The notes below the pieces were generated by a model. That model was not told where the DNA came from. It searched no databases and saw only the letters and a program-made list of their open reading frames with translations. A stretch of DNA of 51,691 nucleotides from Thermococcus sp. GTDB lineage: Archaea; Methanobacteriota_B; Thermococci; Thermococcales; Thermococcaceae. Below are positions 4,668 to 5,490 of this stretch, one piece after another. Numbering within the stretch: the first letter of the stretch is position 1; every line of letters starts with the position of its first letter. Position numbers and translations under genes: made by a program. The stretch is taken from NCBI RefSeq assembly GCF_027052235.1, contig NZ_JALUFF010000019.1, positions 1 to 51,691 of the forward strand, read 5' to 3'.

Positions 4668-4823
4668 TTCCTTCACCGGGTGGATATAATCGCCAGGCTT
4701 TTTAGTGGTTTGGGTGAATTAACCCGAGAGCTCAATTCAGAGAGTCATCGTACTGGATAACCATTCTGTGGGTGGGTCAAACGCCCAAGAATCAGCAATT
4801 GGTCGATAAACCCTCTGGAACCA

Positions 4824-4850
4824 GAAAGGCACTTCATTTCCGCCAGCGCT
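4824..4850 (+). repeat. direct repeat flanking the hairpin block, copy 1
   Basis: This 27-base copy starts GAAAGGCACTTC and ends CGCCAGCGCT. It recurs at 5365-5393 with two one-base insertions and one substitution. Confidence 0.75.
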
Positions 4851-5364
4851 GAAGCTTTTGGGAAAAGCTTCACTAAAAGTTTGTATCTCTCTTTAAAGCG
4901 AGAAATTCAAGTTGGTTTAACTTCTAAAACAAACCCTTTAATAGGAGAACTCTCTTTAAGGTCTCAACCGTGAGAAGTTTACTCTTCCTTTGACGCCCTT
5001 TGGGCGTCGATTTTAGGGGTAAACTCACTCTGCGGAGCAATTCGAAAAGTCCTCACTTCAAAAGGGCTGTTCAAGGGAAACCAACTTAGAATTTTGCTTT
5101 TTAGAAGGAGCTACGAACTTTGATTAAACTTCGCGCAGGCGAACAAACTTTGCGGAGCAAAGTTTGGTCAAAAGAGTGCCTTTCACATGAAAGGGCAAAG
5201 GGTCAGTCGTGCACTCTTCAAGGAGTAAGTTTTGAGGGGTTTAACATTAAATTGGCCTTTTCAGACAGTTTCAATTTTAATCCGCGCCTGAAGGGCGCCT
5301 TCTTGAGTGAAGCACTCACCAAAGGAGCTAGCGAGTAAAACCCTTTCAAAATCCGAACATTATG

Positions 5365-5393
5365 GAAAGGGCACTTTATTTTCCGCCAGCGCT
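5365..5393 (+). repeat. direct repeat flanking the hairpin block, copy 2
   Basis: A 29-base copy starting GAAAGGGCACTT and ending CGCCAGCGCT. It ends 19 bases before the 3' end of the tRNA-Val gene. The two copies bracket nearly all the hairpins. Confidence 0.75.
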
Positions 5394-5412
5394 TGCGAGG
5401 CAAGGGCTGTTG

Positions 5413-5490
5413 TGGTGGGCCCGCGGGGGTTCGAACCCCGGACCTCCGCCGTGTGAGGGCGGCGTCATAACCAGGCTAGACCACGGGCCC
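5413..5490 (-). tRNA. tRNA-Val, anticodon CAC
   Basis: The minus strand folds into a full cloverleaf. The acceptor stem GGGCCCG pairs with CGGGCCC, the anticodon stem CCGCC pairs with GGCGG around loop CTCACAC (anticodon CAC, reading GUG), and the T arm is CGGGG-TTCGAAC-CCCCG. The CCA end is encoded. There is no intron; the total is 78 bases. The high-GC stems suit a hyperthermophile. Confidence 0.96.

Follow-up and report, generated by a model that had tools for sequence, protein, structure and literature searches.

The tRNA-Val (CAC) gene lies on the minus strand of a 51,691 nt stretch of Thermococcus DNA (contig NZ_JALUFF010000019.1 of assembly GCF_027052235.1; the whole of this stretch is referred to here as the window), and the DNA behind its encoded CCA end is occupied by a block that is AT-richer than its surroundings (GC 0.43 over positions 4751–5250 against about 0.55 around it) and unusually rich in hairpins. 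The initial annotation of this block described at least six perfect short hairpins within about 500 bp, one of them nested concentrically in a 50-bp structure, an imperfect direct repeat of 27–29 bases bracketing the set, a recurring word and no convincing protein frame, and as an observation this is confirmed. We counted five perfect stems of 6 bp or more (loop 3–8) in 4824–5412 against a mean of 1.41 in shuffled sequence (2 of 200 shuffles reached five), and three stems of 7 bp or more against a mean of 0.56 (2 of 200), so that 'at least six' is slightly high under this definition, yet the block is the richest of 512 windows of its length in the 51.7 kb. It folds far better than shuffled sequence on both strands (z-scores of −6.0 on the plus strand and −6.3 on the minus strand; 0 of 100 shuffles as stable on either strand). 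The concentric structure is present, the bracketing direct repeat is found at 4825–4850 and 5367–5393 (repeat families D4 and D5), and TGCGGAGCA occurs twice, inside a 19 nt repeat (D1). The longest reading frames within the block are of 72 and 61 aa, neither of them convincing, and the block aligns to its relatives with many indels. One correction is required: the two 'brackets' are not the ends of a single element, but the starts of two B-type modules in an array that is anchored at 5409 and read on the minus strand (Table 1). The tRNA gene had been noted as lying beside the block, but not that it is the anchor.

Table 1. Features of the tRNA-Val array and of one further RNA gene in the window
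Position	Strand	Feature	Support
5413–5490	−	tRNA-Val (CAC) with encoded CCA; anchor of the array	ARAGORN; Rfam RF00005
5410–5412	−	Spacer of 3 nt (CAA) between the CCA end and the array; 3 nt is the commonest spacing in the family	Sequence; spacing census
5387–5409	−	B-head hairpin (CAGC-C-CTTGC/GCAAG-C-GCTG), followed by the conserved GCGGAA at 5381–5386	Sequence; alignment (head pairs near-invariant, one pair swapped G-C/U-A in 13 of 30 copies)
5156–5403	−	Module B (foldback of about 250 bp)	Profile match, 191 bits
5284–5299	−	Central hairpin of module B (GGCGCC...GGCGC)	Sequence; covarying column pair 135–143 (C-G to U-A in 11 of 30)
5144–5166	−	Junction hairpin: tail of B fused to a shortened A head (10-bp stem, 3 nt loop)	Hairpin scan; sequence
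4851–5139	−	Module A (foldback of about 290 bp)	Profile match, 169 bits
4976–5025	−	Concentric structure at the centre of module A (AGTTTAC/GTAAACT around GACGCCC/GGGCGTC); inner hairpin at 4992–5008 in the coordinates of the hairpin scan	Folding; hairpin scan; pairs swapped on both sides in 9 of 31 copies at four stem positions
4850–4872	−	Tail hairpin of module A (10-bp stem, 3 nt loop)	Hairpin scan
4769–4851	−	Truncated second B module (B'), distal end of the array	Profile match, 29 bits
23673–23725		C/D box sRNA sR46	Rfam RF01130, 71.3 bits

Distribution and placement of the modules

The block is one copy of a non-coding repeat family. A search with the block gave 18 matches in the 86-contig genome from which the window derives, the block itself included, and matches in 59 of 61 genomes of the genus and 72 of 94 genomes of the family (59 of 61 in its own genus, 2 of 3 in g2, 0 of 9 in g3, 6 of 13 in g4, 5 of 7 in g5 and 0 of 1 in g6). 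Exact B heads occur in 64 of the 94 family genomes, whereas a control pattern read backwards occurs in none. Two modules were defined by iterated nhmmer profiles, namely A, which is quasi-palindromic, and B; a third, GC-rich hairpin module recurs distally (L015, L097 and L169; individual loci are denoted by L and genomes by G). Each module is a foldback with a GC hairpin at its centre (GACGCCC/GGGCGTC or GCGCTCC/GGAGCGC in A; GGCGCCC/GGGCGCC or GGCGTCC/GGACGCC in B), paired inner ends and hairpins at both ends. Among 109 tRNA-anchored arrays, 62 start with A and 47 with B, and successive same-strand modules alternate in 86 of 99 steps (AB 46, BA 40, AA 8, BB 5). By rank along the array, B modules have higher profile scores in first place (median 188 against 112 in second), but A modules do not, and we draw no inference from this as to an age gradient. 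Hairpins of 7 bp or more number 155 in 25.3 kb of array against 181 in 352.6 kb elsewhere in the same regions and controls (6.12 against 0.51 per kb, a difference of about 12-fold). Neither of the outcomes named beforehand as refuting the observation, a hairpin density no higher than in shuffled sequence or the absence of homologous copies, was therefore obtained.

The position of the modules relative to tRNA genes was examined in two complete genomes, G015 and G010, by reading the regions of all 88 tRNAs listed by an Rfam search together with those of tRNA-Trp and tRNA-Ser(aga) of G015, which had been found through matches to the element; ARAGORN, allowing introns, found 46 tRNAs in G015 and 45 in G010. 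Modules start within 40 nt 3' of 22 of 41 and 17 of 40 tRNAs that end a unit, and 38 of these 39 are on the tRNA strand. None of the 5 and 5 tRNAs followed by another tRNA has a module within 40 nt, none of the 46 and 45 has one within 40 nt on its 5' side, and 60 kb of control DNA has none. Over 245 distinct tRNA flanks, the gap from CCA to the B head is 3 nt in 46 of 57 cases and 1–2 nt in 10 more, and that to the A head is 3–5 nt in 36 of 42, while no head lies within 60 nt 5' of a tRNA. Fifteen isotypes are used. In this sample tRNA-Val is over-represented because its locus was targeted, and many loci were included because they match the array, which inflates frequency but not spacing. Of the 18 exact B heads in G015 and G010, 15 follow tRNAs, one follows the C/D sRNA sR36, one follows an RNA-like sequence without a match in Rfam (L326) and one follows a module of the third type (L097). 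The sequence at L326 (2120–2250) is conserved and precedes the B head in several genomes (also L027, L029, L082 and L214); it consists of a K-turn-like stem followed by a GC-rich stem, matched no Rfam family at gathering score in the loci scanned, which did not include L326 itself, and looks like an undescribed H/ACA-type guide RNA. Heads also abut the ends of protein genes (0–2 nt after stop codons in L216, L319, L323 and L146/L037) or lie just upstream of genes on the other strand, so that the 3' ends of stable-RNA genes are the main anchor but not the only one, and tRNA sequence as such is not the signal.

This placement bears on two alternative explanations. One is that the arrays are host 3'-flank modules which terminate transcription, shape tRNA 3' trailers or insulate highly expressed RNA genes, and which are kept similar by gene conversion. 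The strict position after the last tRNA of a unit and after other RNA genes is in keeping with this, as are the compensatory changes described below and the occurrence of a run of five T within 100 nt on the tRNA strand in 23 of 44 tRNAs with arrays against 7 of 37 without. However, about half of the unit-terminal tRNAs in each complete genome have no module within 40 nt, modules are swapped or missing at the same tRNA between relatives, stem changes show no G-U preference on the transcribed strand, and arrays of up to 1833 nt exceed what a terminator needs; we therefore regard this explanation as unlikely. The other is that the arrays are remnants of islands integrated into tRNA genes by SSV-type or pTN3-type tyrosine integrases. 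Thermococcales islands do use tRNA genes as attachment sites (PMC8371274), and arrays lie behind isolated 3' fragments of tRNA genes (tRNA-Gln, tRNA-Gly and others) at L003, which is in the window's own genome, and L022 (also L201, L257 and L275). Against this, the arrays start outside the tRNA, no duplicated tRNA 3' end is found distal to the array in the window, no integrase belongs to the arrays, and the block has no match in the plasmid or phage collections searched, nor was any B head found in viral contigs. The fragment cases are probably the far borders of islands that entered a tRNA gene already followed by an array, and we consider an origin as island remnants very improbable.

Stem changes, module exchange and synteny

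The first of the readings offered by the initial annotation, that of a structured RNA, was not supported. No Rfam (release 15) family matches within 4824–5409 at the gathering score, and with E-values up to 1 only MIR7729 was found, at 20.6 bits against a cut-off of 92. The stems do show compensatory changes, at 8 of 28 pairs in 31 A copies and 8 of 36 pairs in 30 B copies, the copies having been chosen by us from the better-scoring profile matches and from the tRNA-Val loci described below. If the RNA on the tRNA strand were selected, however, G-U should exceed A-C on that strand. Among pairs predicted on both strands the GU/AC ratio is 5/7 (A) and 4/8 (B), and among stems found without energy rules it is 59/83 over 97 A copies and 44/69 over 72 B copies (103 and 152 in total). 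This is what a constraint on DNA hairpins, or simple decay after copying, would give, and constraint thus appears to act at the DNA level, although single copies fold somewhat better on the tRNA strand in 20 of 31 A and 26 of 30 B, which leaves room for a role at the RNA level. The other two readings, a repeat family typical of these genomes and a non-autonomous element, are supported, so that the initial interpretation was partly borne out.

The locus comprising a dphB-like gene and tRNA-Val was taken from 30 of the 58 genomes that matched the gene. A module lies behind the tRNA in 25 of the 30 (17 A-first and 8 B-first) and is absent from five, one of which ends at a contig edge. In genomes G013 and G032 the neighbouring gene is 95.3% identical, the tRNA stretch is identical and the distal flank is 96.6% identical over 989 bp, yet between them lies an A module in one and a B plus a third-type module in the other, with no alignable sequence beyond 19 nt. 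Within G015 a 332-bp A unit is 99.7% identical behind tRNA-Val(cac) and further along the array behind tRNA-Val(gac), both ends of the match lying inside terminal hairpins and neither in the tRNA. Other shared tracts include the tRNA itself (378 bp at 97.9% in G010), which is gene conversion rather than insertion. Individual near-identical tracts seemed to end at hairpins, but over 72 breakpoints no enrichment was found (18 at distance 0 against a null mean of 19.5); this null takes the better of two independent random positions and is too generous, and we make no claim on this point. No precise pair of empty and filled sites was found, since the loci without a module lie in more distant genomes, end at a contig edge or, as downstream of tRNA-Val in G012 (L194), are followed by what reads like a tyrosine-integrase island.

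It is also possible that recombination alone is responsible, an old set of repeats at tRNA 3' flanks being passed among tRNA loci by homologous recombination and gene conversion without any insertion machinery. Shared tracts that include tRNA sequence, mosaic tracts of 88–99% identity between loci and the synteny break described below are in keeping with this view. We nevertheless consider it unlikely, because heads occur without any tRNA, after sR36, after stop codons and inside DPANN RNA genes, because the 99.7% identical unit of G015 is shared without tRNA sequence, and because the spacing is nearly constant across 15 isotypes.

REARRANGEMENT. Beyond the array, the neighbours of the 30 loci fall into 18 groups among 28 usable loci, whereas on the other side of dphB they fall into 5 among 30, so that the array side is also a synteny break. 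The array side has less unmasked sequence, which inflates its number, and the effects of tRNA and array cannot be separated here. Still, this fits the report that large inversions in Thermococcus end at pairs of tRNA genes, and that a Leu-Thr pair implicated by synteny was not recombined by the pTN3 integrase in vitro (PMC5495485). Arrays shared at 88–99% identity between different tRNA loci would be ready-made substrates for such inversions, so that the idea can be tested at once. Several contigs (C46, C51 and C12 of genome G000, and L176) end in or next to arrays or their tRNAs, and the arrays therefore probably break assemblies at tRNA genes, and would confuse the annotation of tRNA trailers and small RNAs.

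The head hairpin in other archaea and the possible origin of the arrays

The B-head pattern (22 fixed bases) was scanned through 257 billion bases of genome contigs, in which about 0.3 matches would be expected by chance on our arithmetic, and at least 118 stretches were found. Of the 80 classified by record title, 37 are from Thermococcus, Thermococcaceae or Thermococcales, 34 are from other archaea (Woese-, Pace- and Aenigmatarchaeota, Nanoarchaeia, Parvarchaeota, Altiarchaeota and unplaced), 6 are from one Thermoplasmata MAG and 3 are bacterial (Shewanella L218 and L261; Clostridia L217), the bacterial matches being set aside as probable chance or coding matches. In the 37 Thermococcus-type loci (38 matches), 22 abut a tRNA found by ARAGORN and 4 more a visible tRNA 3' end or fragment, one abuts the same RNA-like sequence as at L326, one lies directly after a stop codon, and most others lie, as we read them, just upstream of a gene on the other strand. 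In the 34 other archaeal loci, joining the flanks yields a tRNA across the joint in 9 of 34 against 0 of 34 random positions; in two of the nine (L205 and L229) an intact tRNA lies nearby anyway, so that seven are clear interruptions, in the D-loop or anticodon loop. One more lies within the span of an RNase P RNA gene (L207), and by eye alone further cases (L234, L237, L241 and L247) interrupt tRNA genes. None of the 7 matches in the Thermoplasmata MAG does so. At L234 (3230–3406) and L241 a tRNA gene appears by eye to carry two inserts, the head hairpin in the anticodon loop and a different A/T-rich hairpin in the T-loop. Three archaeal contigs (L205, L252 and L263) show a tRNA 5' fragment ending in the D-loop, then the head hairpin and, some tens of nt later, an intact tRNA with the same start, possibly a duplication of about 20 bp made on insertion. 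The sharing of this hairpin across phyla is the most surprising of our results and the least understood. In Thermococcus genome G003 the short form stands alone, without modules, behind tRNA-Leu (L321), which suggests that the hairpin is the unit and that the modules are additions.

Our preferred interpretation, held with moderate confidence, is that the block is a tRNA-anchored array belonging to a non-autonomous mobile or recombining family of DNA hairpins, a genomic passenger kept as DNA, in which the head hairpin marks the junction with the host gene and further foldback modules follow in one orientation away from the tRNA. The anatomy, the precise spacing, the placement on the 3' side only and after the last tRNA only, the alternation, the copying of modules as a unit to different tRNA genes of one genome, their fast exchange at a fixed locus, the synteny break on the array side and the lack of bias of stem changes towards RNA pairing on the tRNA strand are demonstrated by the sequences. 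The mechanism, in contrast, is our inference: we hypothesize that head hairpins are inserted as folded single strands, by an enzyme acting in trans, at or just behind the 3' ends of heavily transcribed RNA genes, that the site is tolerated because the RNA end is set by processing and the element brings its own T-run, and that the arrays then diversify by recombination and gene conversion among the tens of array-bearing loci of a genome, which would also make them substrates for inversions. No transposase or recombinase was linked to the family in these analyses. A MITE of a DDE insertion sequence would be expected to have terminal inverted repeats and a target-site duplication; inner inverted repeats pair the two ends of module A (alignment columns 35–56 with 312–335), and no target-site duplication was seen at the junctions inspected.

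A non-autonomous element of the IS200/IS605 type, mobilized by a Y1 transposase in the manner of bacterial REP/BIME sequences, was considered because terminal hairpins with a mismatch and a conserved flanking motif, mosaic arrays and strand-neutral stems resemble such elements. However, Y1_Tnp (PF01797) is found in only 15 of 61 genomes of the genus and in neither G015 nor G010, both of which are array-rich complete genomes, and Y1 transposase as the general driver is thus not supported; we regard this origin as improbable. REP/BIME palindromic repeats, which are associated with RAYT (Y1) transposases, are likewise short imperfect hairpins with a conserved flank, combined into mosaic arrays in non-coding DNA, but the arrays described here are locked to one side, one orientation and about 3 nt from tRNA ends. 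Archaeal integrons (PMC9668308) share head-to-tail arrays grown from an anchor, hairpin sites between units and archaeal hosts including DPANN, but no ORF cassettes were found here and the head does not look like attC; the term 'Thermococc' does not occur in the main text of that paper. The tRNA-targeting retrotransposons of Dictyostelium (TRE) and yeast Ty3 also insert at a fixed short distance from tRNA genes, whereas the present modules are archaeal foldback structures without coding capacity, reverse transcriptase or long terminal repeats. The RtT repeats downstream of enterobacterial tyrT are placed behind a tRNA gene, but are confined there to a tRNA-Tyr operon and include a piece of tRNA. 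Transposed tRNA introns of Thermoproteales are near-identical short inserts at several positions of tRNA genes, as are the DPANN copies, but all 99 tRNA-abutting heads counted in the spacing census lie behind the CCA end, unlike a BHB intron removable from within the gene, and the shared 22-base hairpin signature is also found between genes.

We place the family among non-autonomous palindromic repeats. No description of it was found among the titles and abstracts returned by literature searches, although these did not cover most subscription papers and early Pyrococcus and Thermococcus genome papers may mention such repeats, and the terms 'repeat' and 'palindrom' do not occur in the main text of the T. 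kodakarensis transcriptome paper (PMC4247193). A nearly fixed distance of 3 nt to tRNA 3' ends in a prokaryotic repeat implies a targeting mechanism that no archaeal enzyme known to us explains, and its discovery would open a new kind of site-directed insertion. It is interesting to speculate, and we do so only tentatively since we consider it less likely than not, that a DNA hairpin of about 25–30 nt (CAGCCCTT...AAGCGCTGGCGGAA) is itself a mobile unit that homes to stable-RNA genes across Archaea. In this view it would land inside tRNA and RNase P RNA genes in DPANN and Altiarchaeota, and in Thermococcus about 3 nt behind the CCA end of tRNAs and at the ends of other genes, where it would seed arrays of foldback modules that recombine between loci and drive the tRNA-bordered inversions of these chromosomes; it would then be a hairpin-homing system with no known enzyme. 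Pieces resembling the right end of TnpB/IS605-type elements (CCCCGCCCTNNAGGGCG) lie inside or beside arrays at L079 (1990–2060) and in the array of L170.
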